The translations under genes were made by a program, and so were the position numbers. A stretch of 64,000 nt of DNA from Mycobacterium sp. EPa45 (GTDB lineage: Bacteria > Actinomycetota > Actinomycetes > Mycobacteriales > Mycobacteriaceae). The first letter of the stretch is position 1; each line of letters starts with the position of its first letter. The stretch covers positions 3,162,001 through 3,226,000 of the forward strand of contig NZ_CP011773.1 of NCBI RefSeq assembly GCF_001021385.1, in the 5' to 3' direction. Positions 22,220-39,322 of this stretch are shown piece by piece. The notes below the pieces were generated by a model, which had not been told where the DNA came from, did no database searches, and was given only the letters and a program-made list of their open reading frames with translations.

Positions 22220-23692
22220 TCAGGCCTTTGCGGCAGCGCGACCGGCTCGGCGGCCGTAGAAGCTGCCGTCGCCGAGCGAGACGCCGCTGGCGTACCCCCA
22301 GGCCGCCAGTCCTGCTGTGCAGCGGCCCGCCGCGAAGAGCCCCGGGATCGGGTTGCCGCTGACGTGGAGCACTTCGCCGTCCAATGAGGTCATCAAGCCG
22401 CCGAGGGTGAACCCGCCGCAGCTGGCCCGCAGGTCGATCGCACCGACCGGGGTGCCGACGGGTTTGATCCACTCCGGCTTCTTGTGCAGCAACGGATCCT
22501 CGCCGCGGGCGGCCGCGTCGTTGTAGGTGCTGATCGTGGTCTGCAGCGAGCCGACGGGCAGTCCGATCTCTGCCTCCAGCTCGGCGATTGTTTCGCATAC
22601 CCATGTCGCGGGTCTTTTGAGAAAGGGGGTGGCTGAGGTCGCCGCCATCGCGTCATCCTGAGCGTCGCTGTCGATGATCAGGTAGGCGGTGTCCTCCTGC
22701 CGGTACAGCGTCAGCTGACCGATCCGGCCGGAGTACATGTCCTCGGGGACATATCGCTGGCCGAGGCCGTTGACGAGAACACCGCGCACGGTCTGTTGCG
22801 GATCGATCAGGAACGCCACCTCGGTGGCGTCCATGTGTGCGAGGTCTGCGCCGAGGGCCTGTGCCATGCGGATGGCACGACCGTCGTGTTGTTCAATCGA
22901 CGCCGCGGGGCGCCCCGCGATTGCCGGGGCGAATTGCTTGACCATCGACTCGCTGTAGGCGAAGCTGCCCGCGGCCAGCATGACCCCGCGCCGGGCGCGC
23001 ACCCGCACCGTCTCGCCGTACTGTCGCGCCAGCACGCCCGCCACCCGGCCGTCGGACTCGACGATGAGCGCCCGCGCTCGGACGTCATAAACGGCTCTCA
23101 CACCGAGCGACGTCGCGGTCTCGACCAGCGGCTTCATCAACATGAAACCACCGCTCTTCTCACCGGCGACTTTCCCGGCCATCTGCGGGATGTGCCCGCG
23201 CGGAGCGGGTTCGGCGATCGTGTTGAACGGGTAGGCGTTCTCCCCGCCGGTGAACATCAGGCCCTGGTCGCCGGGTGGCTCCCAGCCCGGCTCGCCCCAG
23301 AATTCCGGTTTGAACGGCACGCCGCAATCGGTGAGCCAGTCGAAGTGGTCAAGACTGCCCTCGCAGTAATCCGCGATACGGGCCTCATCGGCGCCCGGCC
23401 CCATCGCCACATTGAGGAACGCCGCCATGTTTTGCGGCGAATCGTCGAAGCCGCAGGCTTTCTGGATCGGTGTGCCGCCCCCGAGGTAGATGAAACCGCC
23501 TGCCATCGCCGCGGCACCACCCCACGACCCGGTGCGTTCGAGCACCAGGACATCGGCACCCCCGCGCGCCGCTTCGACCGCAGCCGCGGCACCCGCGATG
23601 CCGTAGCCGACGATGACCACGTCGGCCTCGTGGTCCCAACTCTCGATCGACGACGCCGGGACTCCGGTGACGTCATCCTCGGTCGGTGTCAT
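22220..23692 (-). CDS. KstD/fumarate-reductase-type flavoprotein, module copy 1
   Basis: 490 residues. FAD motif VIVGYGIAGAAAAVEAARGG and ERTGSWGGAAAMAGG near the N-terminus; C-terminal GRCTAGLAAWGYASGVSLGDGSFYGRRAG closes the flavin site. The family is that of 3-ketosteroid dehydrogenases, but the KstD tyrosine block YPGGG is missing, so the reaction may be desaturation or aromatisation of another ring. The ATG at 23692 overlaps the dioxygenase stop by 4 bp (ATGA) and is preferred to an upstream start inside that gene. Its near twin is at 34031. Positioned last in its operon after the ring-cleavage genes. Confidence 0.8.
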   Translation of the reverse strand: MTPTEDDVTGVPASSIESWDHEADVVIVGYGIAGAAAAVEAARGGADVLVLERTGSWGGAAAMAGGFIYLGGGTPIQKACGFDDSPQNMAAFLNVAMGPGADEARIADYCEGSLDHFDWLTDCGVPFKPEFWGEPGWEPPGDQGLMFTGGENAYPFNTIAEPAPRGHIPQMAGKVAGEKSGGFMLMKPLVETATSLGVRAVYDVRARALIVESDGRVAGVLARQYGETVRVRARRGVMLAAGSFAYSESMVKQFAPAIAGRPAASIEQHDGRAIRMAQALGADLAHMDATEVAFLIDPQQTVRGVLVNGLGQRYVPEDMYSGRIGQLTLYRQEDTAYLIIDSDAQDDAMAATSATPFLKRPATWVCETIAELEAEIGLPVGSLQTTISTYNDAAARGEDPLLHKKPEWIKPVGTPVGAIDLRASCGGFTLGGLMTSLDGEVLHVSGNPIPGLFAAGRCTAGLAAWGYASGVSLGDGSFYGRRAGRAAAKA

Positions 23693-24597
23693 GGCCGCAT
23701 CGCCGCCGGAAGATCCGATACCCACTGGTGCCCCCAATAACTGTCGGCGGTTATCTCTTCTGCGGTGTAGTCGCTTTCGTCGACCAGCATGCCCGCAGTT
23801 CCGAATTCAATATCCCAATCACCCGGCGCGCGTACATAAAACGACACCATTTTGTCGTTCGTGTGCCGGCCCAGTGTCGACGACAGCGGATACCCGTGCG
23901 CGTTGACGCGATCAAGTGCCTGCCCGACGGCGTCGAGGGAATCGACCTCGACCATGAGGTGGATGAGACCCGGATCGCGCAGTGTCTGCGCCGGGCAGAT
24001 CGCGAGACTGTGATGACGCTGATTGACGCCCATGAACCGCACACGCAGCGGACCGAATTCGGGCGGTACCGGCACCCGGAACGCACCGCGCGACACGAAA
24101 CCGAGTACCTCGGTGTAGAAGTCGAAGAGCCCGTTCACGTCCAGCGCGGGCAGGACGACGTGTCCGAGTCCCTGGGCGCCGGTGACGAACCGAGCACCGA
24201 ACGGTGTGACGACGGGGGAATGGTCGAGTACCGCCCCGTGGAACACCTCCAATGACGTGCCCGCCGGATCGTCGAATGCGATGACCTCCTCCACCCGTCT
24301 GGCGTCTGCCTCATCGAGGGACAGCTGCTTGAACGGGATACCGGCAGTGTCGAGTGCGGCCTTCACCCGCTCGAGGTCGGCGTGGTCGCGTACCTCCCAT
24401 CCGACCGTGCGGATTTTGTCCACGTCGCCCGGGACGACGACGATCCGGGCGGCGCGTTCGTCCATGCGAAGGTACAGAGCGGTGTCGTCGGGACCCTTCC
24501 CCTCGGCGAAACCAAGTACGTCGAAGGCGAAGTGGCGCCAGCGACCGATATCGGCGGCCGCGACGGTGACATAGCCCAGACCTTTGATCAGACTCAT
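23689..24597 (-). CDS. HsaC-like extradiol catechol dioxygenase (VOC family), copy 1
   Basis: 302 residues, two VOC domains. Metal ligands of the C-terminal domain are visible as His146 (GLGHVVL), His213 (IHLMVEV) and Glu264 (WDIEFG). The catalytic His pair in RHHSLA (195/196), His245 (GRHTNDK) and Tyr254 are also present, as in HsaC and BphC. Type I enzymes with these residues cleave a catechol next to its hydroxyls using Fe(II) and O2. GAGGAGG lies before the ATG. It is 10 bp after the HsaA-like gene, so hydroxylation and ring cleavage are genetically linked. Confidence 0.92.
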   Translation of the reverse strand: MSLIKGLGYVTVAAADIGRWRHFAFDVLGFAEGKGPDDTALYLRMDERAARIVVVPGDVDKIRTVGWEVRDHADLERVKAALDTAGIPFKQLSLDEADARRVEEVIAFDDPAGTSLEVFHGAVLDHSPVVTPFGARFVTGAQGLGHVVLPALDVNGLFDFYTEVLGFVSRGAFRVPVPPEFGPLRVRFMGVNQRHHSLAICPAQTLRDPGLIHLMVEVDSLDAVGQALDRVNAHGYPLSSTLGRHTNDKMVSFYVRAPGDWDIEFGTAGMLVDESDYTAEEITADSYWGHQWVSDLPAAMRP

Positions 24598-24607
24598 GCG
24601 CTCCTCC

Positions 24608-25789
24608 TCAGATCATCGCTCGCAGCGGGCCCTGCGGATCGACGCCCAGCGAACTGAGCGCCGCCGCGTGGTAGATGGTTCCCGGCACATGGATGGCGTG
24701 GGCCTGGCCGACATGTACGTCGCGCCAATAACGTTGCAGCGGTTTGTCCATCCGGGCCGCATTGCCGCCACAGCGCGCGAAGATCTCGTCGACCGCGGAG
24801 ACCGCGCGCCATACCGCGCGCACCTGGGTGCGCCGTCCGGCGGCCCGGTCCTCGAAGGACACCTCGTGTCCGGAGTCGACGATGTCGTAGATGCGGTCGG
24901 CATTGGCGAGCAGTTCCTGCCGGGCGGCATTGATGTCGGCGGCGGCCTCACCAATGGCGTACATGACGTACGGGTCGTCCTTCACCGCCACCCCGCTGGC
25001 ATTGACCCGCTCTCGCTGATAATCCAGCGCGGCGGCAAGGGCGCCTTCGGCGATGCCGATGGTCGCCGCACTGATGCCGAGGGGGAACATCGTCGACCAT
25101 GGCATGAGGTAGAGAGTGTCGGTCATGCCCGCCTCGCGCTGAGCCGTGCCGTCCATCACCTTCGTCGCATCCATGGTGCGGTAGGCCGGCACGAATGCGT
25201 CCTTGACGATGACGTCTTTGGAGCCGGTACCGCGCAGCCCCACGACATTCCATGAGTCGTCGACGATCTCGTAGTCTTTGCGCGGCAGGATCATGTGGAG
25301 CATCTGCGGCGGCATGATCGGCTTGCCGTCGGCGTCGCCGAGCATCGCGCCGAGGAAGATCCAGTCACAGTGGTCGGTGCCGGAGCTGAACTGCCACCGG
25401 CCGTTGAAGAGGTAACCGCCGTCCACCGGCGTGGCCACGCCCTGCGGTGCGTAAGGCGAGGCGACCCAGGTATCGACGTCGTCAGCCCAGATCTCAACGG
25501 CAACCCTCGGATCGGCGTACGCCAGCTGATAGGGGTGCACACCCACCACACCGTTGATCCAACCGGCGGACGGATCGAGCGCAGCGGTGGCCATGACGGT
25601 CTCGGCGAACTCACGTGGATGAACTTCCAAGCCGCCGTGCGACTTCGGCTGCAGCAGCCGGATATTGCCCGCCGATTTCATCAGCTTGACGGTCTCGTCG
25701 GTGAGCTTGCCGATTCTCTCGGCCTCGACGCCCTGATCGCGGAGCTGCTCGGCGTTTCGCCGCACCCGGTCGATTACCCGCTCGGTCAT
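24608..25789 (-). CDS. HsaA-like flavin-dependent monooxygenase, copy 1
   Basis: 393 residues of the acyl-CoA-dehydrogenase-fold monooxygenase group (HsaA, HpaB-type). Typical are IRLLQPKSHGGLEVHP, AGWINGVVGVHPYQLA, WQFSSGTDHCDWIFLG, VGLRGTGSKDVIVKDAFVP and the C-terminal RYWRDVHVGQAHA. No ACAD catalytic Glu is in place, as expected. It uses reduced flavin from a partner reductase (HsaB type, not seen in the window) to hydroxylate a phenol ortho to its OH, giving a catechol for the dioxygenase downstream. Confidence 0.88.
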   Translation of the reverse strand: MTERVIDRVRRNAEQLRDQGVEAERIGKLTDETVKLMKSAGNIRLLQPKSHGGLEVHPREFAETVMATAALDPSAGWINGVVGVHPYQLAYADPRVAVEIWADDVDTWVASPYAPQGVATPVDGGYLFNGRWQFSSGTDHCDWIFLGAMLGDADGKPIMPPQMLHMILPRKDYEIVDDSWNVVGLRGTGSKDVIVKDAFVPAYRTMDATKVMDGTAQREAGMTDTLYLMPWSTMFPLGISAATIGIAEGALAAALDYQRERVNASGVAVKDDPYVMYAIGEAAADINAARQELLANADRIYDIVDSGHEVSFEDRAAGRRTQVRAVWRAVSAVDEIFARCGGNAARMDKPLQRYWRDVHVGQAHAIHVPGTIYHAAALSSLGVDPQGPLRAMI

Positions 25790-25889
25790 GATCTGTTCCT
25801 ATCTCGCTCGGCTGAGGCTGATCGTGTACCGCTGCTGCGACGGTGGCGGTGAGGATTCCCGGTCAGCGGAAAGCCGGCGCGGGCCACAG

Positions 25890-26204
25890 TCAGAATTCGA
25901 TGTGGACGTCGTCGGTGAGTGGTCTGGCCTGACAGCTGAGGATCACGCCCTCGGCAAGGTCCTCAGCCTGCAGGATGTCGCAAACGGCCATGTCGACCTG
26001 TCCGTTCACCACGGTCGCCGCACACGACCCGCAGTGACCCTCTTTACAGGAGTACGGCACGTCGAGGCCGGCGGCGATCAGGGTGTCGACCAGGGTGGCG
26101 TCTCGCGGCCAGCGCACCCGGTGCTTTATCCCGTAGAGGTCGACATGAGCGGTCGCGGTATCAGGGTCGTCGAAATCGCCCGCGCCGCTTGCGAGGTCGG
26201 TCAT
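25890..26204 (-). CDS. 2Fe-2S plant-type ferredoxin resembling the KshB C-terminus
   Basis: 104 residues. Ligands are Cys53, Cys58, Cys61 and Cys91 (CKEGHCGSC ... SCQA), spacing as in plant-type ferredoxins. The stretch from YSCKEGHCGSC to CQARPL resembles the ferredoxin domain at the end of KshB, but the FAD/NAD(P)H reductase domains are missing. It could feed electrons to the KshA-like oxygenase with a separate reductase. It lies 100 bp before the HsaA-like gene and 101 bp from the divergent BVMO. No counterpart exists in module copy 2. Confidence 0.88.
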   Translation of the reverse strand: MTDLASGAGDFDDPDTATAHVDLYGIKHRVRWPRDATLVDTLIAAGLDVPYSCKEGHCGSCAATVVNGQVDMAVCDILQAEDLAEGVILSCQARPLTDDVHIEF

Positions 26205-26305: not shown

Positions 26306-27919
26306 GTGAGCAGTGAGTCGAAGACCGACGTCGATGTCGTCGTGGTGGGAGCCGGATTCGCCGGCCTGTATGCCCTGCACAAGTTTCGCTCGCAGGGGCT
26401 GTCGGTGCGCGTGTTCGAGGGGGCACCCGAGGTCGGCGGCACCTGGTATTTCAACCGCTATCCGGGCGCACGGTGCGACGTCGAAAGCGTCGACTACTGC
26501 TACTCGTTCTCCGACGAGCTACAACAGGAGTGGACGTGGACCGAGAAGTACGCCACTCAGACCGAGATTCTGGCCTACATCAATTGGGTCGCCGACAAGT
26601 TGGATCTGCGCCGGGACATCACCTTCAACACCAGGGTGACGAATGCGGTTCTCGACGAGGAGCCGTTGCACTGGACGGTCACCACTGACGCTGACGAGAG
26701 CGTGCGGGCCCGCTTCGTCGTCATGGCCACGGGTCCACTCTCGGCGGCACTGACTCCGAACTTCACGGGCCTGGAGAGCTTCCGCGGGGAGGTCTACCAC
26801 ACGGCGCACTGGCCGCATGAGCCCGTGGATTTCACCGGCAAGCGCGTGGCCGTCATCGGCACCGGGTCCTCGGGCGTCCAATCCATACCGATCATCGCCG
26901 AGCAGGCCGACCAGCTTTACGTGTTCCAACGCACCCCGAATTACAGTGTGCCTGCGGGCAATCGGCCACTGACCGCCGACGAGGTCGCCGATATCAAAGC
27001 CAATTACACTGAACGCCGACGGATGTCGTGGCGTAGTGGCGGCGGTTCACCGCACGTTGCGCATCCGAAGCTGACGATGGAGGCCACGCCCGAGGAGCGC
27101 AGGACGGCGTTCGAGAAACGCTGGGAACTCGGCGGTGTGCTGTTCTCGAAGACGTTCGCCGATCAGATGATCTCGTTGGAGGCCAACGAGGAAGCCCGGA
27201 AGTTCTACGAAGAAAAGGTCCGCGCCGTCATCGATGATCCTGGCGTCGCGGATCTGCTCATCCCGACCGACCATCCGATCGGCACCAAGCGAATCTGCAC
27301 AGATTCCAACTACTTCCAGACGTTCAATCGGCCCAACGTCACGCTGATCAGTGTGCGAGACACCCCCATCGAGTCGATCGACGAGACGGGTATCGCTACT
27401 GCGGAGACACATTTCGATATCGACGCGCTGGTGCTGGCCACCGGGTTCGACGCGATGACCGGCGCGCTGGCCAAGATCGACATCGTGGGCCGTTCGGGTC
27501 AGCGGTTGACCGACGACTGGGCCGACGGGCCTCGGACCTATCTGGGATTGGGGACCGACGGTTTTCCCAATCTGCTCCTGGTGTCGGGCCCGGGTGCGCC
27601 CGCGGTTCTGGCCAACATGGTGTTGCATGCCGAGGCACACATCAATTGGATCGCCGACGCCATCGAGTACCTCGACGACTGTGGCTATGACGCCATCGAA
27701 CCGACTGCCGAGGCCGTCGAGAGTTGGATCGCAGAGTGTGCGCAACGCGCCGAGGCGACGCTGTTCACCAAAGCCAACTCCTGGTACATGGGTGCCAACG
27801 TCCCCGGTAAGCCCCGCGGCTTCATGCTCTTCATCGGTGGATTCGGGACGTATCTCGACATATGCAACGAGGTAGCCGACGCAGGCTACAAGGGATTCGA
27901 CCTGCTCAAGGCACCGTAG
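26306..27919 (+). CDS. cyclohexanone-monooxygenase-type BVMO, copy 1
   Basis: 537 residues, the usual length for CHMO-type enzymes. First Rossmann GAGFAG, APEVGGTWYFNRYPGARCD, the Baeyer-Villiger fingerprint FRGEVYHTAHWPHE (F-x-G-x3-H-T-x2-W-P), second Rossmann GTGSSGVQ and the C-terminal ATGFDAMTG. It should oxidise a cyclic ketone to a lactone. GTG at 26306 follows GGAG. The next SDR gene begins directly after its stop. Its near twin at 37712 shares most of the sequence. Confidence 0.92.
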   Translation: MSSESKTDVDVVVVGAGFAGLYALHKFRSQGLSVRVFEGAPEVGGTWYFNRYPGARCDVESVDYCYSFSDELQQEWTWTEKYATQTEILAYINWVADKLDLRRDITFNTRVTNAVLDEEPLHWTVTTDADESVRARFVVMATGPLSAALTPNFTGLESFRGEVYHTAHWPHEPVDFTGKRVAVIGTGSSGVQSIPIIAEQADQLYVFQRTPNYSVPAGNRPLTADEVADIKANYTERRRMSWRSGGGSPHVAHPKLTMEATPEERRTAFEKRWELGGVLFSKTFADQMISLEANEEARKFYEEKVRAVIDDPGVADLLIPTDHPIGTKRICTDSNYFQTFNRPNVTLISVRDTPIESIDETGIATAETHFDIDALVLATGFDAMTGALAKIDIVGRSGQRLTDDWADGPRTYLGLGTDGFPNLLLVSGPGAPAVLANMVLHAEAHINWIADAIEYLDDCGYDAIEPTAEAVESWIAECAQRAEATLFTKANSWYMGANVPGKPRGFMLFIGGFGTYLDICNEVADAGYKGFDLLKAP

Positions 27920-28726
27920 ATGTCATCGGGCTTGAAGGACAAGGTCGTTCTGGTGACCGGCGCGGCCCGGGGCACGGGCCGGGTGCACTGTGAACAGTTC
28001 GCCGACGCCGGTGCCGACGTCATCATGCTCGATCACAGCGAGGCGGCCGAGGACCTGCGTGAGACCGCGCAGCGCGTGATGCAGCGGGGTCGGCGGGCGG
28101 TCGCCAGGACGGCCGACGTCACCGATCTCGCCGAGGTCACCACGGCGGTCGATGCCGGTGTCGGACAGCTGGGGCGCCTCGACGTTGTCGTGGCCAACGC
28201 CGGCATCCACACCCCGGGTGCGCCCGCCTGGCAGATCAGCCCGCAGCAATGGCAGCGCACGATCGACGTCAACCTCACCGGTGTGTGGCACACGGTTCGG
28301 GCGGGCGTACCGCACATCGGTCCCGATGGCGGCTCGGTGATTATCATCAGTTCCACCAACGGATTACGCGGTACCGCAGGCACTGCTCACTACACGGCCA
28401 GTAAACACGCGGTGGTCGGATTGGCGCGGACACTCGCCAATGAGCTGGGGCCCAGGCGTATTCGGGTCAACACCGTGCACCCGGGGGCGGTGGCGACACC
28501 CATGGTGCGAAACCCGGCGACATACAAACGGCTGCGGCCGGACCTGGAGGAACCAACCGAGGCCGACGCCGCTGAAGTGCTGACAGCACGTAACCTCCTT
28601 CCCGTGCCGTGGGTCGAACCCGTCGACGTCGCGAACGCCGTCGTCTTCCTGGCATCCGATCAGGCCCGGTACATCACCGGAACCCAGCTGGTCGTCGATG
28701 CCGGCCTGACCCAGAAGACGACATGA
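27920..28726 (+). CDS. short-chain dehydrogenase/reductase
   Basis: 268 residues: TGAARGTGR cofactor motif, VANAGIHTPG, SSTNG with catalytic Ser and HYTASKHAVVG (Tyr, Lys). The C-terminal ARYITGTQLVVDAGLTQ is standard for SDRs making or oxidising secondary alcohols. It starts directly after the BVMO stop codon (TAGATG) and its stop overlaps the next SDR start by 4 bp. It could oxidise the alcohol substrate of the BVMO. Confidence 0.88.
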   Translation: MSSGLKDKVVLVTGAARGTGRVHCEQFADAGADVIMLDHSEAAEDLRETAQRVMQRGRRAVARTADVTDLAEVTTAVDAGVGQLGRLDVVVANAGIHTPGAPAWQISPQQWQRTIDVNLTGVWHTVRAGVPHIGPDGGSVIIISSTNGLRGTAGTAHYTASKHAVVGLARTLANELGPRRIRVNTVHPGAVATPMVRNPATYKRLRPDLEEPTEADAAEVLTARNLLPVPWVEPVDVANAVVFLASDQARYITGTQLVVDAGLTQKTT

Positions 28727-29556
28727 CCGGCCGGCTCGCAGGAAAGACCGCGTTCATCACCGGCGCCGCACGGGGTATCGGTCGCGCCCAGGCGGTGCGC
28801 TTCACACAGGAGGGCGCAGCGATCATCGCGGTCGACAATTGCGGCCCGGTCGAGTCAGTACGGGTGCCCGCCAGCACACCGGGTGACCTCGACGAGACCG
28901 CACGCCTGGTCGAGCAGGACGGTGGTCGTATCGCCACCGACATCGTCGATGTGCGCGATCTCGACGCGCTACGGGCGAGTGTCGACCGCGGTGTCGCCCA
29001 CTTCGGTGGCCTCGACATCGTCTGCGCAACCGCGGGCATCACCTCCCGCGATCTTGCGATCGACATGGCCGAAACCACCTGGCGGACAATGCTCGACGTC
29101 AACCTCACCGGGGTGTGGCACACCTGCTCTGTCGCGATTCCGCACCTGATCGACCGCGGGGGAGGGTCGCTGGTGCTCGTGAGCTCGATCGCCGGTCTGC
29201 GTGGCCTGGTCGGCGTCGCTCATTACACCGCGGCCAAGCACGGTGTGGTCGGTCTGATGCGCAGCCTCGCACACGACCTGGCGCCGCATGGGATTCGGGT
29301 CAACACGGTGCACCCGACGAACGTCGATACCCCGATGATCCAGAACGACGTGGTGAGCAGTGCGTTCCGACCCGATCTGAATCGGCCCCCGACCAGGGAC
29401 GAGTTCGCCGACTCCGCGACGACGATGAACCTGCTTGCGGTGCCGTGGGTGGATCCGCTGGATGTCGCGAATGCCAGCCTGTTCCTGGCCTCCGACGAGG
29501 CGCGCTACATCACCTCGGTCAGCTTGCCGGTGGATGCCGGAGCTACACAACGATGA
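28723..29556 (+). CDS. SDR of the mycofactocin-dependent type
   Basis: 277 residues. TGAARGIGRAQ, then an insertion after strand 2 (VPASTPGDLDETARLVEQDG) that is typical of the mycofactocin-associated SDR subfamily, which holds its NAD tightly and passes electrons to mycofactocin. The catalytic set is SSIAG and HYTAAKHGVVG. Assigning the cofactor from the insertion is established for the family but not tested here. ATGA overlap with the preceding SDR. Confidence 0.82.
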   Translation: MTGRLAGKTAFITGAARGIGRAQAVRFTQEGAAIIAVDNCGPVESVRVPASTPGDLDETARLVEQDGGRIATDIVDVRDLDALRASVDRGVAHFGGLDIVCATAGITSRDLAIDMAETTWRTMLDVNLTGVWHTCSVAIPHLIDRGGGSLVLVSSIAGLRGLVGVAHYTAAKHGVVGLMRSLAHDLAPHGIRVNTVHPTNVDTPMIQNDVVSSAFRPDLNRPPTRDEFADSATTMNLLAVPWVDPLDVANASLFLASDEARYITSVSLPVDAGATQR

Positions 29557-29573
29557 ACACCGAGAGGAACACC

Positions 29574-30368: not shown

Positions 30369-30370
30369 CC

Positions 30371-31216: not shown

Positions 31217-31755
31217 TGATCGACGCAGACATTCTGGACAGGCTTCAGCGCCTGGAGGACCAGCAGGCCATCGCCACACTCATTGCCTCCTATGGGCCGG
31301 CGGTCGACGCGGGCGACGCGGATGCTGCCGCACGTCTGTGGGCGGCAGACGGCGGCTACGACGTCGAGGGGTGGGCGATGTCAGGCCGTCAAGCTGTCCA
31401 CGACATGGTTGCGTCGAATTCGCATCAGGAGTTGGTGGCCAGGGGGTGCTGCCACTTCCTGGGGCCGGCGGTGGTGAAGGTCGATGGGGACCGTGCTGTG
31501 GCTGTGTGCGAGTCACTGGTGCTCCTGCGTCGCCAAGGTCGAGAAGACACGAACCAAACGGACTCGTACGGCATATGGCGGGCGACGGCCAATCATTTCG
31601 TCCTTGAGCGACTGGAAGGCCGGTGGCAGATCACCACCCGCACGAGCCGTCTCCTCGATGGGGGTCGTTACGCACGTGCGCTGCTCGGCGCCGGTCTGGC
31701 CGGGGCAGCTGTGATCGAGCCGACTCCCAGTGAATGGCACATCTCGAATGACTGA
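31216..31755 (+). CDS. SnoaL/NTF2-like protein
   Basis: 179 residues. The N-terminal DRLQRLEDQQAIATLIASYGPAVDAGDADAAARLWA is the SnoaL-4 pattern; later strands carry CCHFLGPAVVKVDGDRAVAVCESLVLL and RWQITTRTSRLLDG. Probably an isomerase or dehydratase. ATG at 31216 overlaps the LLM stop; AAGGAG lies 5-6 bases before. Same operon as the SDRs and BVMO. Confidence 0.78.
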   Translation: MIDADILDRLQRLEDQQAIATLIASYGPAVDAGDADAAARLWAADGGYDVEGWAMSGRQAVHDMVASNSHQELVARGCCHFLGPAVVKVDGDRAVAVCESLVLLRRQGREDTNQTDSYGIWRATANHFVLERLEGRWQITTRTSRLLDGGRYARALLGAGLAGAAVIEPTPSEWHISND

Positions 31756-31809
31756 GTCCCGGCGCTGTTGCACATTGGAGGCTGACACGGATTGAGGCGG
31801 AGGCCTGGA

Positions 31810-32750: not shown

Positions 32751-34034
32751 ATGGGTTCGATCAATGCGGCGCTGGATGCGCTGGACGCTGCGGTCGAATT
32801 GTTGGGTGCCGCTGACATCGAGGAGCTGCCTGCTCCTGAACGCTTCTCGGCTCTGGAGCGGCTGGAGAACGCGGTGCGCCGTCAAGTCGCGGTCTCCCAT
32901 GAGCAACTCGTCCATCTCGAGCGCTACGAGGGCTGCCCGCCGATCCCGATCGTGTTGGCCGATGTGCTGCGCATCAGCCGCGCGGCGGCCAACCGCCGGG
33001 TTCGTGATGCCGAGCAATTGGCACCCCGAACCACGCTGACCGGCGATCGGTTGGCAGCGTTGCTGCCGGAGACGGGCAAAGCCTGGCAGGCTGGCCATCT
33101 CGACGGCGAGCACGTGCGAGTCATCCAGAAATTCTTTCGGGACCTGCCCGACCACGTCGGTCCCGTGGAGGTCCAAAAGGCCGAGCAGTCCTTGGCTCAA
33201 CATGCGCAGAGCATGCGGCCCGATGAATTGGAGACGGTCGCCGGGCGGCTGGCCGCTCACCTCCATCCCGACGGGAAGTTCTCCGACGAGGACCGGGCAC
33301 GCAAACGCGGTTTCCAATGGTGCGGCGCTCAGCGTCCCGACGGGATGAGCGTGGGAAAGCTGACTGCCGACCCGCAGCTGCGGGCCGAGCTCGACGCGGT
33401 GTTCGCCAAGCTCGCCGCACCGGAGCCGGACGACCTACGCGGTTTAGCGCAACGCCAGCATGACGCGCTGAAAACGTTGGTGCACGACCGGCTCGGTGAT
33501 CCGAAGCTCGGTCAGCACAACGGGTTACCGGTCACCATGATCGTCACGACCACCCTGCAAGACCTGCAGAAGGGTGCCGGCCAGGCCGTCACCGCAGGCG
33601 GCACGTTGATCCCGATCACCGATCTCATCAAGTTCGCCACGCCCTCCTACAACTATCTGGCGGTGTTCGACGGCGTCACGGGTAGATCGCTGTGGTTGGG
33701 TCGCAGTAAGCGGTTGGCTTCAGCAGATCAACGAATCATGTTGTTGGCCAAGTACCGTGGCTGTACTGCACCGGGCTGCACCGTTAACGGCTACAACAGC
33801 CAAGTCCATCACGCCACCAAAGACTGGAAATACGGTGGCACCACGGACATCGACGACCTCACCCTGGCCTGCAAATGCAACAACCTCATGGTCGAAAATG
33901 ACGGTTGGGCCACCCGCCAACTCCCCAACGGGCAAACCCACTGGACACCACCACCCGGCGTACCGCTGCGAAGCGGCGTCAACGACTATCACCATCCCGA
34001 GCGATTGCTTCCGAAAGACGGCGAAAAGGACTAG
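32751..34034 (+). CDS. DUF222/HNH endonuclease-domain protein (13E12 repeat family)
   Basis: 427 residues. The long DUF222 helical part (ISRAAANRRVRDAEQLAPR, AWQAGHLDGEHVRVI) is followed by an HNH-like C-terminus with CTAPGC, a His pair in VHHATKDW and CKCNN, as in mycobacterial 13E12 genes. These are repeated many times per genome and may behave as mobile or recombining elements; their biochemical role is not established. It lies alone between the two copies of the catabolic module and its 3' end overlaps the copy 2 flavoprotein by 4 bp. Confidence 0.88.
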   Translation: MGSINAALDALDAAVELLGAADIEELPAPERFSALERLENAVRRQVAVSHEQLVHLERYEGCPPIPIVLADVLRISRAAANRRVRDAEQLAPRTTLTGDRLAALLPETGKAWQAGHLDGEHVRVIQKFFRDLPDHVGPVEVQKAEQSLAQHAQSMRPDELETVAGRLAAHLHPDGKFSDEDRARKRGFQWCGAQRPDGMSVGKLTADPQLRAELDAVFAKLAAPEPDDLRGLAQRQHDALKTLVHDRLGDPKLGQHNGLPVTMIVTTTLQDLQKGAGQAVTAGGTLIPITDLIKFATPSYNYLAVFDGVTGRSLWLGRSKRLASADQRIMLLAKYRGCTAPGCTVNGYNSQVHHATKDWKYGGTTDIDDLTLACKCNNLMVENDGWATRQLPNGQTHWTPPPGVPLRSGVNDYHHPERLLPKDGEKD

Positions 34035-35488
34035 CCCCGGGCAGCCGCCCGTCCGGCTCGCCGGCCGTAGAAACTGCCGTCGCCCAACGAGATACCGCTG
34101 GCATAGCCCCATGCCGCCAGTCCCGCAGTGCAGCGCCCGGCCGCGTACAGGCCCGGGATCGGCTCGCCACTGACATGCAGCACCTCGGCATCGAGGCTGG
34201 TGCGCAAACCGCCGAGCGGAAACCCGCCGGTGGCGTGTCGCAGGTCGATGGCGCCCACCGGACTGCCGATCGGCCGCAACCACCGAGCCTTCTTGTGCAG
34301 CAACGGATCTTCGCCTCGCGCTGCGCCTTCGTTGTAGCGCCTCACCGTGTCCTGCAGACTTCCGTCTGGAAGACCCATCTCAGTCTCGAGTTCGGCGACT
34401 GTCTCGCACACCCACTTCGGCTTACGCAGAATCAGCTTCGGTGTTTGCGACGCCAGCGCTTGCTCCTGCGCCTCGTCGTCGAGGATCAGGTACGCCTCGT
34501 CATCCTGGTGGTAGAGCGTGAGCTGACCGGCCCGGCCCGGATAGGTGTCTTCGGCGACGTAGCGCTGCCCGCGCGCATTGACGAGGATGCCCCGCACGAG
34601 CTGTTGCGGATCGACCACGAACGCAACCTCGGTGGCATCCACATGTGCCAGGTCGGCGCCGAGCGCCTGCGCCATCCGAATGCCTTGCCCGTCATGCTGT
34701 TCCACCGCGGAGATGGGCCGCCCGGCGATCCGGGGCGTGAAGCGGGCCATCATCGACTCGTTGTAGGCGAAGCTTCCCGTCCCCAGCACTACGCCACGGC
34801 GGGCTCGGACCGTGATGTCGCTGCCGTACTGGCGGGCGGTGATCCCGACGACCCGGCCGTCGGACTCGACGACGAGGGACTGCACGCGGACGTCGTAGAG
34901 CGCCCGTACGCCGAGATCGGTGGCCGCTTGCACCAACGGTTTCATCAGCATGAAACCGGCGCTGGCCTGGCCCTGCTTCTTGTGCTGCATCTGCGGCACA
35001 TGCCCGCGCGGCGCGGGGTCGGCAACGATGTTGAACGGGTACGCATCCTCGCCACCGCTGTACATCAATCCCTGATCGCCCAGTGGCTCCCAGCCCGGCT
35101 CGCCGAAGAACTCCGCTTTGAACGGAACCCCGCAGCCAACCAGCCACTCGAAATGGGCGACACTGCCCTCGGAATAGTCGGCGATGCGCTCGCGGTCCGC
35201 ACCGGGGCCCATCGCGGCGTTGAGGAAGGCCGCCATGTTCGCCGCGGAATCCTCGAAGCCACAGGCTTTTTGCAGCGCGGTGCCGCCGCCCAGGTAGATG
35301 AATCCACCCGCCAGAGCCGCCGCACCGCCCCAGGCGCCGGCCCGTTCGAGCACCAGCACATTGGCGCCGGCACTTGCGGCCTCGACCGCAGCGGCCGCGC
35401 CCGCCACTCCGAAACCGGCGATCACGACGTCGGCCTGGTGGTCCCAGTTCGCCACTGAAGCGGCCTGGACCGGGCGGACGTCGGTCAT
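34031..35488 (-). CDS. KstD/fumarate-reductase-type flavoprotein, module copy 2
   Basis: 485 residues, near twin of the gene at 22220. VIAGFGVAGAAAAVEAASAG and ERAGAWGGAAALAGG are the FAD motifs; the C-terminal GRCTAGLAAWGYASGISLGDGSFYG block is the same. Differences cluster around the N-terminus and residues 180-190. The ATG at 35488 lies one base after the dioxygenase stop, where copy 1 has a 4-bp overlap. Its 3' end overlaps the HNH gene. Confidence 0.82.
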   Translation of the reverse strand: MTDVRPVQAASVANWDHQADVVIAGFGVAGAAAAVEAASAGANVLVLERAGAWGGAAALAGGFIYLGGGTALQKACGFEDSAANMAAFLNAAMGPGADRERIADYSEGSVAHFEWLVGCGVPFKAEFFGEPGWEPLGDQGLMYSGGEDAYPFNIVADPAPRGHVPQMQHKKQGQASAGFMLMKPLVQAATDLGVRALYDVRVQSLVVESDGRVVGITARQYGSDITVRARRGVVLGTGSFAYNESMMARFTPRIAGRPISAVEQHDGQGIRMAQALGADLAHVDATEVAFVVDPQQLVRGILVNARGQRYVAEDTYPGRAGQLTLYHQDDEAYLILDDEAQEQALASQTPKLILRKPKWVCETVAELETEMGLPDGSLQDTVRRYNEGAARGEDPLLHKKARWLRPIGSPVGAIDLRHATGGFPLGGLRTSLDAEVLHVSGEPIPGLYAAGRCTAGLAAWGYASGISLGDGSFYGRRAGRAAARG

Positions 35489-35489
35489 G

Positions 35490-36398
35490 TCAGGGACGCA
35501 TGGCAGCGGGCAGGTCGCCGACCCACTTGTGACCCCAGTAGCTGTCGGCGGTGATTTCCTCTGCGGTGTAATGATTTTCATCGACGCGCACACCGCCGGT
35601 GCCGAACTCGATATCCCAGTCACCGGGTGCGCGGACGTAGAACGACACCATCTTGTCGTTGGTGTGGCGACCAAGGGTGGACGACAGCTGGAATTCCTGG
35701 GCGGCGATGCGGTCCAGCGCTTCGCCGACGGTGTCGAGGCTGTCGACCTCCACCATCATGTGGATCAGGCCGGGATCGCGCTGATGCATGGCCGGGGCGA
35801 TCGCCAGGCTGTGATGACGTTCGTTGATCCCGAGGAAGCGGATGCGGATCGGGCCGAATTCTTTTGGCAGCGGCACCCGGAACGCACCGCGGGACACGAA
35901 ACCCAATACGTCGGTATAGAAGTTGACCAGGCCTGGGGCATCCATTGCCGGCAGCACGACGTGGCCCAATCCCTGGTCGCCGGTGACGAACCGCGCGCCG
36001 AACGGGGTCACCACCGGGCTGTGGTCGAGGACCGCGCCGTGAAACACCTCGAGATGGGTACCGGCCGGGTCGTCGAACGCCACAACCTCCTCGACCCGCC
36101 GATCATCAGCCTCCGACTGTGACAGCTGTTTGTACGCGACCCCGGCGCCCTCGAGCAGCGCTTTCACCTGCTCCAGTGCGGTATGGTCACGTACCTCCCA
36201 GCCGACGGTGGCGATCCGGTCGCCATCGCCGGGCACCACGATGATCCGGGCCGCCCGCTCGTCCATCCGCAGGTACAGCGCCGACGGGTCAGGACCCTTA
36301 CCCTCGGCGAATCCCAGTACCCCGAAGGCGAATTGGCGCCAGCGATCGATCTTGGCGGTGTGGATGGTGACGTAGCCGAGGCTCTTCAGAAGGCTCAC
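35490..36398 (-). CDS. HsaC-like extradiol catechol dioxygenase, copy 2
   Basis: 302 residues, aligned without gaps to copy 1. Metal ligands His146, His213 and Glu264 and the active-site RHHSLA, GRHTNDK and SFY motifs are unchanged. Substitutions fall in the substrate-pocket strands, for example PAMDAPGLVNF versus PALDVNGLFDF and APAMHQRDPG versus CPAQTLRDPG, so the two may prefer different catechols. It starts at GTG without a strong ribosome site. Copy 1 has ATG with GAGGAGG. Confidence 0.92.
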   Translation of the reverse strand: MSLLKSLGYVTIHTAKIDRWRQFAFGVLGFAEGKGPDPSALYLRMDERAARIIVVPGDGDRIATVGWEVRDHTALEQVKALLEGAGVAYKQLSQSEADDRRVEEVVAFDDPAGTHLEVFHGAVLDHSPVVTPFGARFVTGDQGLGHVVLPAMDAPGLVNFYTDVLGFVSRGAFRVPLPKEFGPIRIRFLGINERHHSLAIAPAMHQRDPGLIHMMVEVDSLDTVGEALDRIAAQEFQLSSTLGRHTNDKMVSFYVRAPGDWDIEFGTGGVRVDENHYTAEEITADSYWGHKWVGDLPAAMRP

Positions 36399-36411
36399 CG
36401 GTGCGTACCCG

Positions 36412-37596
36412 TCAGATCATCGCCCGCAGCGGGCCCTGCGGGTCGACGCCGAAGGAGCTCAGCGCCGACGCGTGATACACAGTGCCCGGCACGTGAATAG
36501 CGTGCGCCATCCCGGTGTGCGCGTCCCGCCAGTAGCGCTGCAGCGGTTTGTCCATCCGCATCGCATTGCCGCCGGAGCGAGCGAAGATTTCGTCCACCGC
36601 GCTGACCGCACGCCACACTGCGCGCACCTGGGTGCGCCGCCCGGCGGCGCGGTCCTCGAACGAGACCTCCTTGCCGGAATCCACCATGTCGTAGATCCGG
36701 TCGACGTTGGCAAGGATCTCCTGGCGGGCGGCGTTGATGTCGGCCGCAGCCTCGCCGATCGCGTACATCACGTAGGGGTCGTCCTTGATCGCGGTCCCCG
36801 CCGCGCTGACCCGCTCGCGCTGGTAGTCCAGGTGCGCGGCCAGCGCGCCCTCACAGATCCCGATGGTGGCCGAGGAGATGCCCAGCGGGAACATCGTCGA
36901 CCACGGCATCAGGTACAACGTGTCGGTCATGCCGGCTTCCCGCTGCGCGGTGCCGTCCATCACTTTGAACGCGTCCATGACGCGGTAGTCGGGCACGAAG
37001 GCGTCCTTGACGATGACGTCCTTGGAACCGGTGCCGCGCAACCCGACCACGTCCCAGGAATCCTCGACGATGGTGTAGTCCTTGCGCGGCAGGATCATGT
37101 GCAACATCTGGGGCGGCATCTGCACTTTGCCGTCGGCGTCGCTCTTGATGGCGCCCAGGAAGATCCACTCGCAGTGATCGGTCCCGGAGCTGAACTGCCA
37201 GCGACCGTTGAAGATGTAGCCGCCGTCGACAGGCCTGGCGATGCCCTGCGGGGCGTAGGGCGAGGCCACCCAGGTGTCCACGTCGTCGGCCCAGATCTCC
37301 TCCGCCACCCGCGGGTCGGCGTAGGCCAGCTGATAGGGATGCACTCCGACGACACCGTTGATCCACCCGGCGGCCGGGTCGAGTGCGGCAATCGCCATCA
37401 CGGTCTCGGCGAATTCCCGGGGATGGACCTCCAGGCCGCCGTGCTTGGCAGGCTGGAGCAGTCGGATGTGGCCGGCTTCTTTCATCGCCTTGACGGTCTG
37501 GTCGGTGAGCTTGCCGATCTTCTCGGCTTCTACGGCCTGCTCGCGCAGCTGGTCAGCCATCTGCATCGTCTTGTCGAGCACCGAAGCGGTCATCAT
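36412..37596 (-). CDS. HsaA-like flavin-dependent monooxygenase, copy 2
   Basis: 394 residues, almost identical to the gene at 24608 except near the N-terminus and in a few helices. VGLRGTGSKDVIVKDAFVP and the C-terminal GVDPQGPLRAMI are the same. It hydroxylates a phenol for the dioxygenase 13 bp downstream, using reduced flavin from an unseen reductase. AAGGAC precedes the ATG; a second ATG follows immediately. Confidence 0.88.
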   Translation of the reverse strand: MMTASVLDKTMQMADQLREQAVEAEKIGKLTDQTVKAMKEAGHIRLLQPAKHGGLEVHPREFAETVMAIAALDPAAGWINGVVGVHPYQLAYADPRVAEEIWADDVDTWVASPYAPQGIARPVDGGYIFNGRWQFSSGTDHCEWIFLGAIKSDADGKVQMPPQMLHMILPRKDYTIVEDSWDVVGLRGTGSKDVIVKDAFVPDYRVMDAFKVMDGTAQREAGMTDTLYLMPWSTMFPLGISSATIGICEGALAAHLDYQRERVSAAGTAIKDDPYVMYAIGEAAADINAARQEILANVDRIYDMVDSGKEVSFEDRAAGRRTQVRAVWRAVSAVDEIFARSGGNAMRMDKPLQRYWRDAHTGMAHAIHVPGTVYHASALSSFGVDPQGPLRAMI

Positions 37597-37711
37597 TCGT
37601 CCTTGTCCAAATCTGGGCTGTTGGTTTCATCCTGACCCCGGGCGCCCGTCAGTAGCGTGCAATGTCTCGATGAGCGGGGCAATGTCAGAATTTGGACCTA
37701 CTCTGCTGGAC

Positions 37712-39322
37712 ATGAGCGCAGCAGACGAGGCACTCGACGTGGTCGTTGTCGGTGCCGGATTCGCCGGGCTGTACGCGCTGCACAGGTTCCGCCGACAGGG
37801 CTTGTCGGTCCGCGTGTTCGAGGCGGCGCCCGAGGTGGGCGGCACCTGGTATTTCAACCGATACCCCGGGGCCCGCTGCGACGTCGAGAGCGTCGACTAC
37901 AGCTACTCGTTCTCCGACGAGCTGCAGCAGGAGTGGACCTGGACCGAGAAGTACGCCACCCAGACCGAGATCCTGGCCTATCTGAACTGGGTCGCCGACA
38001 AGCTCGACCTGCGGCGGGACATCACGTTCAACACCCGCGTGGCCTCGGCGGTGCTAGACGAAGCCACCCTGCGCTGGACCGTGACGACCGAGGGCGGCCA
38101 CGCGATCACCGCGCGGTTCGTGGTCATGGCGACCGGAGCGTTGTCGGCGGCCATCACGCCGGCGTTCGACGGACTGGACCGCTTCGGCGGCGCGATCTAC
38201 CACACCGCGCACTGGCCGCACGACGGCGTGGATTTCACCGGCAAGCGGGTCGCGGTGATCGGCACAGGATCCTCAGGTATTCAATCGATTCCGATCTTCG
38301 CCGAACAAGCCGAGCACCTGTATGTCTTTCAGCGCACCCCGAACTACAGCATCCCGGCCGGGAACGCGCCTCTGACCGCCGAGCAAGTGGCTGAGGTCAA
38401 GGCGACATACGCCGAGCGTCGCCGGGTGTCGATGCGCAGTGGTGGTGGCTCGCCGTATGTCGGCACGACGAAGCGGACTTTTGAGGTCTCGCCGGAAGAA
38501 CGGCGGGACGCCTTCGAGAAGCGTTGGCGCCTCGGCGGTGTGCTGTTCTCCAAGACATTTCCCGATCAGCTCACCGATCAGGCCGCCAACGACGAGGCGC
38601 GCCGATTCTGGGTGCAGAAGGTCCGCGCCGTCATCGATGACCCCGACGACGCCGAACTGTTGATCCCCGACGATCACCCGATCGGGGCGAAGCGAATTTG
38701 CACCGACTCCAACTACTTTCAGACGTTCAATCGGCCCAACGTGACATTGATCAGCGTCCGCCGTACTCCGATCGTGTCGATCGACGAGACCGGCATCAAC
38801 ACCTCCGAAGCGCACATGGACCTCGACGCGATCGTGTTCGCTACCGGATTCGACGCTCTCACCGGCTCATTGGGCAAGATCGATATCGTCGGGCGCGGGG
38901 GAGAGCTGCTACGCGACGACTGGGCCGACGGCCCACGCAGCTACCTCGGACTTGGCGACGACGGCTTCCCCAACCTGTTTGTCGTCACCGGCCCCGGAGC
39001 GCCGGCTGTGCTGGCCAACATGGTCCTGCACGCCGAGGCGCACGTGGACTGGATCGCCGAGGCCATCGCCTATCTCGATGCCCACGGATTCGTCGGCATC
39101 GAGGCGACACCGGAGGCGGTGGAAAATTGGCTCGCCGAGCTCAATCAGCGCGCCGCAACCACTCTCTTCCCGAAGGCCAATTCCTGGTACCTGGGCGCCA
39201 ATGTGCCAGGCAAGCCAAGAGTTTTCATGCTGTTCATCGGTGGCTTCGGCCCCTACAACGAGATCTGCGCGGAGGTCGCGGCCGCCGGATACAAGGGCTT
39301 CGACCTGATCAAGAATCCCTGA
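37712..39322 (+). CDS. cyclohexanone-monooxygenase-type BVMO, copy 2
   Basis: 536 residues. GAGFAGLYAL, GGTWYFNRYPGARCD, fingerprint FGGAIYHTAHWPHD, second Rossmann GTGSSGIQ. The ATG at 37712 gives the same N-terminus length as copy 1; in-frame ATGs at 37670 and 37682 are alternatives. It is divergent from the HsaA-like gene across about 115 bp and convergent with the HsaD-like hydrolase. No SDR follows it, unlike copy 1. Confidence 0.92.
   Translation: MSAADEALDVVVVGAGFAGLYALHRFRRQGLSVRVFEAAPEVGGTWYFNRYPGARCDVESVDYSYSFSDELQQEWTWTEKYATQTEILAYLNWVADKLDLRRDITFNTRVASAVLDEATLRWTVTTEGGHAITARFVVMATGALSAAITPAFDGLDRFGGAIYHTAHWPHDGVDFTGKRVAVIGTGSSGIQSIPIFAEQAEHLYVFQRTPNYSIPAGNAPLTAEQVAEVKATYAERRRVSMRSGGGSPYVGTTKRTFEVSPEERRDAFEKRWRLGGVLFSKTFPDQLTDQAANDEARRFWVQKVRAVIDDPDDAELLIPDDHPIGAKRICTDSNYFQTFNRPNVTLISVRRTPIVSIDETGINTSEAHMDLDAIVFATGFDALTGSLGKIDIVGRGGELLRDDWADGPRSYLGLGDDGFPNLFVVTGPGAPAVLANMVLHAEAHVDWIAEAIAYLDAHGFVGIEATPEAVENWLAELNQRAATTLFPKANSWYLGANVPGKPRVFMLFIGGFGPYNEICAEVAAAGYKGFDLIKNP

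Follow-up and report, generated by a model that had tools for sequence, protein, structure and literature searches.

Positions 1674-40182 of the window (the whole 64,000-nucleotide stretch of Mycobacterium sp. EPa45 DNA analysed here) probably hold a merged steroid cluster of the C-19+ type, in which clusters of two lineages have been joined head to tail and whose chemistry would be directed at C21/C19 steroids. Cluster 1, which would represent the common mycobacterial C-19+ type, contains copy 1 of a repeated four-gene module and consists of the following parts.

1674-3284, minus strand: kstD_a, KstD-like flavoprotein (FAD_binding_2, 3.5e-86; syntenic in M. neoaurum ATCC 25795, 73%)
4708-6414, minus strand: kstD_b, KstD-like flavoprotein (FAD_binding_2, 1.1e-79; M. 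neoaurum, 68%)
6464-7684, plus strand: KshA2-type 3-ketosteroid 9α-hydroxylase oxygenase (KshA_C, 2.2e-91, Rieske; kshA tree)
7975-8637, minus strand: TetR-type regulator (Pfam; M. neoaurum, 57%)
11302-12333, minus strand: est1, HSL-type esterase (Abhydrolase_3, 1.9e-66)
16600-18522, plus strand: third BVMO, not of the STMO type (33.9% to STMO; syntenic in single-copy loci)
20370-21518, minus strand: est2, HSL-type esterase, candidate steroid-acetate esterase (Abhydrolase_3, 1.1e-75)
21290-22114, minus strand: IclR-type regulator adjoining copy 1 (IclR_C, 2.6e-30)
22220-23737, minus strand: copy 1 flavoprotein, 3-ketosteroid Δ4-(5α)-dehydrogenase type (68.6% to 4AT0)
23689-24597, minus strand: copy 1 HsaC-like extradiol dioxygenase (TIGR03213, 373.1 bits, above the cut-off of 366.45)
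24608-25789, minus strand: copy 1 HsaA-like flavin-dependent oxygenase (HsaA model, 365.2 bits)
25890-26204, minus strand: [2Fe-2S] ferredoxin-only remnant of KshB2 reductase (49% to residues 259-353 of KshB1)
26306-27919, plus strand: copy 1 steroid-monooxygenase-type BVMO (65.7% to STMO 4AOS; start corrected)
27920-28726, plus strand: mycofactocin-coupled SDR (TIGR03971, 329.8 bits)
28609-29556, plus strand: mycofactocin-coupled SDR, ORF, domain from about residue 43 (TIGR03971, 372.7 bits)
29115-30368, plus strand: third SDR, ORF, domain from about residue 163 (Pfam)
30023-31216, plus strand: F420-type luciferase-like oxidoreductase, ORF, domain from about residue 120 (TIGR03619, 232.8 bits)
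31213-31755, plus strand: SnoaL-like protein (Pfam)
31792-32664, plus strand: enoyl-CoA hydratase-like protein (NF006140, 452.5 bits)

Cluster 1 also includes fadD/fadE genes. The junction and cluster 2, a putative paralogous or xenologous lineage with a Δ4-dehydrogenase, dioxygenase, HsaA-like enzyme, STMO-type BVMO and HsaD-like hydrolase, comprise the following.

32751-34034, plus strand: DUF222 gene where the two clusters meet (Pfam; ENV421 has cluster 2's kshA at the same place)
34031-35674, minus strand: copy 2 flavoprotein, Δ4-(5α)-dehydrogenase type, ORF (67.0% to 4AT0, match from residue 61)
35490-36398, minus strand: copy 2 HsaC-like dioxygenase (78.8% to copy 1; Fe ligands kept)
36412-37593, minus strand: copy 2 HsaA-like oxygenase (86.0% to copy 1; best solved relative 2OR0)
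37712-39322, plus strand: copy 2 steroid-monooxygenase-type BVMO (69.5% to STMO; start corrected)
39328-40182, minus strand: HsaD-like C-C hydrolase adjoining copy 2 (HsaD model, 278.5 bits; Mtb HsaD, 232 bits)
40185-46498, no single strand: cyclase, MscS, DAO and DUF1214 genes (the first three are also found after copy 2 in stand-alone loci)

Comparison of the window DNA with itself revealed two collinear blocks (E = 0), pairing 22230-25753 with 34041-37557 (75.9% identity, 3538 bp) and 26331-27910 with 37734-39313 (75.2%, 1584 bp). Together with protein identities of 70.6% for the flavoproteins (500 aligned), 78.8% for the HsaC-like dioxygenases (302), 86.0% for the HsaA-like oxygenases (393) and 76.7% for the BVMOs (541), these blocks confirmed the preliminary description in that the module is present twice in equal order and orientation. 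Also as described, a [2Fe-2S] protein and SDR genes accompany copy 1 alone, a single HsaD-like gene adjoins copy 2, and the two halves are complementary in anatomy. The divergence between the copies must be old because third-codon-position identity is 0.50-0.60 and dS is 0.9-1.4, and dN/dS values of 0.03-0.12 indicate purifying selection in both lineages. The BVMO reading frames as originally listed start too early; the corrected starts lie at about 26306 (copy 1) and 37712 (copy 2).

We then placed the two copies in a rooted four-gene tree of 56 rows, 12 of them in the copy-2 clade and 11 of them copy 1 rows from linked genomes. Copy 2 formed its own clade (100/100 support), older than most single-copy modules sampled, and its first branches (M26, CH28 and G018) are all without copy 1; copy 1 of the linked genomes formed a separate 100/100 clade beside M. 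fortuitum-type single copies. Thus, in the trees the copies are not sister lineages, the relationship by which a tandem gene duplication is recognised, and forcing them into one clade was mildly rejected (AU test, p = 0.0405). Further, in seven other loci copy 2 is not linked to copy 1; there it adjoins its own kstD and, in two of them, its own kshA as well. Four of these seven contain the BVMO and three the flavoprotein, with kstD_a directly beside the dioxygenase instead in four; the BVMO is also missing from three single-copy loci (L009, L018 and L026). Neither BVMO nor flavoprotein is thus an obligatory part of the module. The linked genome ENV421 retains cluster 2's kshA at the junction, where it groups with stand-alone copy-2 kshA (99/98), in addition to cluster 1's own kshA (88%). 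The separate clade, the stand-alone loci and the ENV421 kshA together argue for the joining of two C-19+-type clusters with loss of redundant genes; we infer the joining event from phylogeny and synteny, and the subsequent losses would have included cluster 1's hydrolase and cluster 2's kshA. ENV482, nested among linked genomes, carries copy 2 alone, which calls for one or more additional losses, or else for a second joining event.

The arrangement had initially been described as a direct duplication, and tandem duplication of a single module in place, with the copies later diverging towards two substrates, would account for the adjacency, direct orientation and complementarity of the copies, for lineage-specific dioxygenase pocket positions (see below) and for the mildness of the AU rejection. 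Nevertheless, it is unlikely and largely refuted, because the copies fall in separate old clades, that of copy 2 being common to other gene orders, because copy 2 is accompanied elsewhere by a kstD and in places a kshA of its own, and because ENV421 retains cluster 2's kshA at the junction.

Enzyme homology points to C21/C19 steroids as the putative substrates of the merged cluster because the flavoproteins are 67-69% identical to a 3-ketosteroid Δ4-(5α)-dehydrogenase (R. jostii RHA1, PDB 4AT0; 477 aa aligned for copy 1 and 485 for copy 2), from which their activity is predicted, and the BVMOs are 66-70% identical to the progesterone-oxidising STMO of Rhodococcus rhodochrous (PDB 4AOS), a type I BVMO class whose defining reaction converts progesterone to testosterone acetate. 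The BVMOs had been called divergent; on the contrary, known enzymes are close, and steroid monooxygenase is the nearest solved relative of both copies. BVMOs are marked by the fingerprint FxGxxxHxxxW[PD], which both copies have in common with STMO. Three of seven mapped STMO docking contacts are changed in the window BVMOs (S54P, W62F and N160A), and copy 1 and copy 2 agree at every one of the seven. The type I extradiol iron ligands are kept in both dioxygenases (H146, H213 and E264 in copy 1; same columns in copy 2), and two of the five positions contacting DHSA in HsaC differ between them, the copy-2 residues occurring in 12 of 12 copy-2-clade rows and in 0 of 81 other aligned rows. These pocket positions lend some weight to the earlier proposal of two related substrates, whereas the BVMO contacts speak against it. 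It is possible, if somewhat doubtful, that the copies are redundant, both serving one substrate, retained fortuitously or for dosage and decaying in some relatives, which is compatible with the joining of two clusters: copy-2 genes are broken or missing in G009 and G171 and the BVMO contacts are alike, but purifying selection has acted on both lineages across a long divergence and the pocket residues are lineage-specific.

Ring cleavage may act on a substrate other than canonical 3-HSA/DHSA because the equivalog cut-offs were missed for HsaA (NF045629; copy 1 at 365.2 bits, cut-off 450, canonical HsaA 679), HsaC (NF045631; copy 1 at 359.7, cut-off 450, the genome's canonical HsaC 550.7) and HsaD (NF045632; 278.5, cut-off 400). 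Those scores, and a top NCBIfam BVMO model (pentalenolactone synthase) that is far below its cut-off, would also fit a cluster degrading a terpenoid, bile acid or other polycyclic compound outside the C19/C21 steroids. This is quite improbable given that KshA, two KstD-like proteins and STMO-type and Δ4-KSTD-type enzymes co-occur, and that the available literature ties the M. smegmatis C-19+ cluster to C19 steroids.

In the pathway that we propose from these homologies, the Δ4-(5α)-type flavoproteins would introduce Δ4 into 5α-reduced 3-ketosteroids, the BVMOs would convert a C20 ketone (progesterone type) to the 17β-acetate, the HSL-type esterases would release the 17β-alcohol, and the mycofactocin SDRs would oxidise it to the 17-ketone. 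KstD and KshA would then open ring B, and the HsaA-like enzyme would form a catechol with a flavin reductase supplied from elsewhere, for example HsaB of the cholesterol operon; the genome's three flavin-reductase genes (PF01613) are all outside the window, and HsaB of the canonical operon is one of them. Either dioxygenase could cleave the catechol, leaving the last step to the single hydrolase.

That hydrolase is the only close HsaD relative that the complete genome encodes (next best, 32% identity and 131.6 bits). We placed it in cluster 2 mainly by position because it is nearly as close to the copy-1 locus hydrolase of G009 (88%) as to the copy-2 locus hydrolase (90%). The canonical hsa operon of EPa45 (L003) has equal reaction types but differs in sequence (dioxygenase 47% and HsaA 40% to copy 2) and is without hsaD, which is also absent from the cholesterol operon in 11 of 19 others checked; the steroid cluster may therefore also serve cholesterol, through putative cross-service by its hydrolase. 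A C-19+ cluster is expected to lie outside KstR control and to be required for the catabolism of C19 steroids once derepressed. No exact match to the KstR-type site motif TNNAACNNGTTNNA was found within 1674-40182, whereas the canonical hsa region, used as control, has one.

A single C-19+ module is already known, from M. smegmatis (Fernandez-Cabezon, Galan and Garcia 2018; cited in PMC6351609, PMC5962712, PMC10672877 and PMC12239570) and from a homologous second cluster of M. neoaurum ATCC 25795 (PMC5962712), so the statement that no such mycobacterial cluster had been described does not hold for one module; the fused double arrangement was not found in searches of open-licence literature. 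Gene order in the cluster equals that of M. neoaurum contig 21 (L201 + L033), and six of the seven gene types in the C-19+ list available from PMC6351609 are present together (kstD2, kstD3, kshA2, hsaA2, hsaC2 and hsaD2). The KshA2-type protein is 58% identical to the genome's own KshA1, encoded elsewhere. The seventh gene of that C-19+ list, a full-length kshB2 reductase, is absent from the window: the "ferredoxin" is the 104-aa C-terminal domain of KshB2 without the reductase part, and KshB2 is full-length in relatives (L010, L021, L023, L113 and L116). EPa45 differs from C-19+ clusters in its second, paralogous module, its cut KshB2 and its one hydrolase beside copy 2; the STMO-type and Δ4-(5α)-KSTD-type genes inside its cluster go unmentioned for C-19+ in the available texts. 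Strain ST-F2, credited in PMC6351609 with the full set of seven C-19+ genes (similarity threshold 50%), carries the same module (L039).

According to PMC10672877, it is not established how the C-19+ pathway is activated in nature; PMC12239570 states that pathways of complete aerobic progesterone mineralisation had been unknown and reports, from a personal communication, progesterone use by M. smegmatis after derepression of its C-19+ cluster. We tentatively suggest that mycobacterial C-19+ clusters may be catabolic clusters for pregnanes (C21, including 5α-reduced), in which STMO would cut the C17 side chain, the Δ4-(5α)-dehydrogenase would admit 5α-steroids and a C21 steroid would be the natural inducer; two would have fused in one clade, and the hydrolase may have replaced HsaD in trans in several lineages, so that hsaD of the KstR operon became deletable and cholesterol degradation dependent on a "silent" cluster. 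The STMO-type and Δ4-(5α)-KSTD-type genes point to a direct, testable substrate, and the fused cluster supplies natural isoenzyme pairs for steroid biotechnology. With hsaD missing, cholesterol catabolism in some mycobacteria would rely on a gene outside the operon, and an operon survey would score the pathway as incomplete. The pdc progesterone cluster of Caenibius tardaugens likewise has BVMO and luciferase-like monooxygenase genes, but its BVMO shares only 30.4% identity with STMO, and the other two of its four pdc genes are regulatory (available text of PMC12239570). In the filtered locus set, an IclR-type regulator stands beside the module in 59 of 76 loci.

The preliminary description had reported a four-gene block that occurs twice, and comparison of the DNA and the proteins of both blocks bore out two collinear repeats, although the interpretation attached to them was supported only in part. 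In each block, the genes for an HsaA-like monooxygenase, an HsaC-like dioxygenase and a flavoprotein lie on the minus strand, with a BVMO gene diverging on the plus strand. The window covers bases 3162001–3226000 of a complete genome (6.18 Mb); of the loci fetched, the nearest one with a named record is from Mycobacterium sp. BK086 (98% in HsaA of copy 1). Alignment of the protein pairs gave 71–86% identity between the copies, with a match at the third codon position in 0.50–0.60 of codons and a synonymous divergence of 0.9–1.4. The dN/dS inside each lineage is 0.03–0.12 in the comparisons kept, which leave out the row BVMO2 versus L007 (a relative's locus), a pairing that most probably involved the other copy. 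It follows that the two copies are old and that both are maintained. A candidate operator shared by the divergent spacers, GTCCAAAT, occurs in the window only at 37605 and 37690, and alignment of seven relatives showed no conservation of it.

Comparison with solved structures placed the flavoprotein closest to 3-ketosteroid Δ4-(5α)-dehydrogenase (4AT0; 68.6% identity for copy 1 and 67.0% for copy 2) and both BVMOs closest to steroid monooxygenase (STMO; 4AOS; 65.7 and 69.5%, respectively). A third BVMO, at 16600, is 33.9% identical to STMO and thus not of the steroid-monooxygenase type. A terpenoid cluster, prompted by SDR and PtlE-like NCBIfam matches, was dropped after this PDB comparison. 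The docking passage available for STMO names eight contact residues (PMC5332494), seven of which were mapped, Lys404 being left out because of a mismatch with the chain numbering; at these seven positions the BVMO copies do not differ, and four of the residues match STMO. In both dioxygenases the three iron ligands and the residues of the HsaC O2 pocket are retained, and the pocket loop is shorter by five residues. Five HsaC positions touch the C/D-ring portion of DHSA according to the available part of PMC2652662; there, copy 1 has V, V, C, I and W, copy 2 has V, I, A, I and W, and HsaC has L, L, L, V and F. Ile at 190 and Ala at 205 were found in 12/12 rows of the copy-2 clade and in 0/81 rows outside it (78 with a copy-1 label, and L082, L119 and L128, whose copy-2 label comes from HsaA alone). 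Scores against the HsaA, HsaC and HsaD equivalog models were below the cut-offs, and we therefore name these proteins HsaA-, HsaC- and HsaD-like. Around the module lie genes for KshA, two KstD-like proteins, two HSL-type esterases, mycofactocin SDRs, TetR and IclR, together with fadD and fadE.

The arrangement had been thought to match no described mycobacterial cluster. This did not hold for the single module, which is known as C-19+, the steroid cluster type of M. smegmatis, as judged from its synteny with M. neoaurum ATCC 25795, where the entire order from kstD to the hydrolase lies on a single contig, and from its presence at locus L039 of strain ST-F2. The passages available assign kstD2/kstD3 of M. 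neoaurum ATCC 25795 to that strain's second steroid cluster, a homologue of M. smegmatis C-19+ (PMC5962712), and list seven critical C-19+ genes, all of which ST-F2 is said to have with above 50% similarity (PMC6351609). Neither STMO nor Δ4-(5α)-KSTD is named as a C-19+ component in these C-19+ literature passages. For the linked pair, in which both copies lie near each other, no description was found among the open-licence papers listed, and it appears to be a new arrangement of a known kind of module. The search found 442 relatives, and the 76 named loci are the best-scoring ones; most of these loci hold a single module, arranged (with gaps) as hydrolase, SDR genes, BVMO, KshB2/ferredoxin, HsaA, dioxygenase, flavoprotein, IclR, esterase, Dabb, SDR, BVMO3 and fadD. 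Among these best 76 of 442, at least 70 have the dioxygenase, at least 63 the STMO-type BVMO, at least 60 the flavoprotein and at least 54 all three, within distance limits that undercount neighbours (L007, L030 and L035 scored without a BVMO though one is present). Related clusters with KstD, STMO-type BVMO, IclR, dioxygenase, HsaA and KshA occur at two loci from another genus of the same family (L195 and L196).

The two blocks had further been taken for a direct (tandem) duplication, and this was rejected on account of the trees, which put the copies in separate clades, together with the synteny, which shows copy 2 apart from copy 1. The copy-2 proteins group as a clade to themselves in the trees of HsaA (SH-aLRT 98) and of the dioxygenase (SH-aLRT 99). 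On the rooted tree of four genes, the 12 copy-2 rows (100/100) are sister to 36 others (group support 81/96), a three-row M. llatzerense-type lineage having split off before. The earliest branches within the copy-2 clade are the genomes M26, CH28 (a row filling just 39% of the columns) and G018, which are without the copy-1 type. Copy 1 of the linked genomes forms a separate 11-row clade (100/100) beside M. fortuitum-type single copies. Constraining the linked-genome copies and the copy-2 lineage to one clade cost 61.6 log-likelihood units, although the rejection by the AU test was mild (p-AU 0.0405). Copy 2 may have originated either by transfer or by ancient duplication. A plasmid origin was rejected, the sole match at megablast sensitivity to a plasmid record being one from Nocardia farcinica with 8% of the query covered. 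Pairing of modules recurs, since four other genomes also carry two, at different places: those of CBMA 226 (L124/L125), G222 (L126/L127) and G038 (L129/L130) belong to different lineages, and those of G234 (L131/L132) are sisters.

The linked pair is best explained by the joining of two clusters. In all seven stand-alone copy-2 loci read (L068, L073, L076, L117, L122, L231 and L232), kstD is nearby and hydrolase, cyclase, MscS and DAO genes then follow, the same right flank as that of copy 2 in the window. Of the seven, four have the BVMO, three the flavoprotein and two (L076 and L117) a kshA; because flavoprotein and BVMO are absent from several, our confidence is slightly lower in the joining explanation and in the bolder reading, in which C-19+ clusters would break down C21 steroids and their hydrolase would have replaced HsaD. 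In L068, L073, L231 and L232, which have no flavoprotein, a kstD_a-type gene (81–85% to window 1674–3284) directly adjoins the dioxygenase gene. In the genome ENV421 (L035), the modules are linked with a kshA between them that groups with the stand-alone-locus kshA of G018 and ENV482 (99/98), not with the kshA of cluster 1, the wider steroid gene set around copy 1, whose own kshA ENV421 also retains (88%). In the window, the spot of this junction kshA is occupied by another gene:

Window 32751–34034, DUF222 gene at the cluster junction

The junction DUF222 gene was seen in 7/12 linked genomes read (the window, L007, L010, L020, L021, L030 and L115). ENV482 nests among the linked genomes yet carries copy 2 alone, which requires either an additional loss or a repeat of the joining. 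The hydrolase of cluster 1 was probably lost. A search for the empty site by way of the cyclase/MscS pair (six loci read) found the pair without copy 2 but also without DAO and the following genes, and the insertion point was not located. Elsewhere in the genome, a third KshA-type reading frame (G000:C1:54203–55339) has one in-frame TGA and is possibly a pseudogene.

A dioxygenase with 87% or more identity to that of copy 2 is carried by 12 of 248 genomes in the genus, this one among them, and about 158 (read from the table) have some C-19+-type dioxygenase. The copies lie on one contig in 9 of the 12, about 6–12 kb apart, and 1.6 Mb apart in G009; G018 and G155 are without any other HsaA above 63%. 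By flank and identity (dioxygenase 82–83%, HsaA 90%), G098 and G240 have further copy-2-type loci. Both copies were seen in eight of the best 76 of 442 loci (L007, L010, L016, L020, L021, L023, L030 and L035). An orphan HsaA-like/IclR pair without dioxygenase, flavoprotein or full BVMO (21 kb read) was observed in M. septicum, CBMA 247, DL99 and M. frederiksbergense (L015, L022, L024 and L028).

We confirmed that the genome has no close HsaD homologue other than the hydrolase bordering copy 2. The next-best hydrolase, at 2022536, is 32% identical and adjoins an MhpA-type hydroxylase; the two score 278.5 (window) and 245.2 bits with the HsaD model, both below the cut-off of 400. The window hydrolase occupies the same position as in stand-alone copy-2 loci, and its identity is 93–97% among linked genomes, 90–92% to the copy-2 loci of G018, G009 and G155, 88% to the copy-1 locus of G009 and 71–84% to the hydrolases that accompany single copies. 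By the locus tags in the available part of PMC6429209, M. tuberculosis hsaD is flanked by hsaC and hsaA; the corresponding operon here has an hsaC-hsaA gap of 44 bp:

G000:C1:5594360–5597097 (L161:4361–7098), canonical cholesterol hsa operon, hsaB-hsaC-hsaA without hsaD

Among 20 operons checked directly (own included), picked partly by HsaD-type match counts, hsaD was absent between hsaC and hsaA in 12 (G000, G004, G016, G022, G024, G053, G072, G093, G098, G101, G150 and G240) and present there in eight (G009, G011, G018, G049, G155, G171, G175 and G183). The 12 genomes have exactly one HsaD-type match each, of C-19+ type, and the eight have two or three each, counts that lend support rather than proof because nine candidates were scored per genome. 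G016, G022, G072 and G101 (L227–L230) have the hsaD-less operon and a C-19+-type hydrolase without a C-19+ module (15 kb read) and without a C-19+-type dioxygenase. The simplest reading of these gene contents is that the C-19+-type hydrolase would serve cholesterol degradation in hsaD-less species. Recruitment of the hydrolase by KstR was rejected: the upstream stretches scanned hold no exact KstR site, giving no support for co-regulation, and a KstR-like string with two mismatches, near −46 in several of the linked genomes, is unconvincing.

The "ferredoxin" gene described for copy 1 is present, but it is the C-terminal part of KshB2 (49% identity to KshB1):

Window 25890–26204, stand-alone ferredoxin of KshB2, matching KshB1 residues 259–353

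Relatives, including the linked L010, L021, L023, L113 and L116, have a full reductase of about 350 aa at this spot. Of 59 copy-1-type units scored, 34 have full KshB2 and 25 the ferredoxin only, with at least five changes between the two states on a quick tree. Similar N-termini suggest that the ferredoxin-only form may have arisen by in-frame internal deletion. Because KshB2 is without its reductase part, KshA2 must borrow a reductase such as KshB1. Likewise, none of the three flavin-reductase genes of the genome lies inside the window (HsaB is in the canonical operon), and the HsaA-like oxygenases must therefore borrow one.

The points of interest are the possible double duty of the hydrolase and the proposed substrate assignment, for which homology and a personal communication in PMC12239570 make the following pathway most likely. 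The flavoprotein would carry out Δ4 desaturation of a C21 or C19 3-ketosteroid, possibly 5α-reduced, and the BVMO would convert the C20 ketone to a 17β-acetate. An HSL-type esterase would cut the 17β ester and an SDR oxidise the resulting 17β-alcohol; ring B would be opened by KstD and KshA, and ring A degraded by the HsaA-, HsaC- and HsaD-like enzymes in turn. According to that communication, M. smegmatis uses progesterone once its C-19+ cluster is derepressed, and the available part of PMC12239570 suggests the luciferase-like MSMEG_4862 as the cause. We propose the STMO-type BVMO, which M. smegmatis may likewise carry, as an alternative candidate for this progesterone use.
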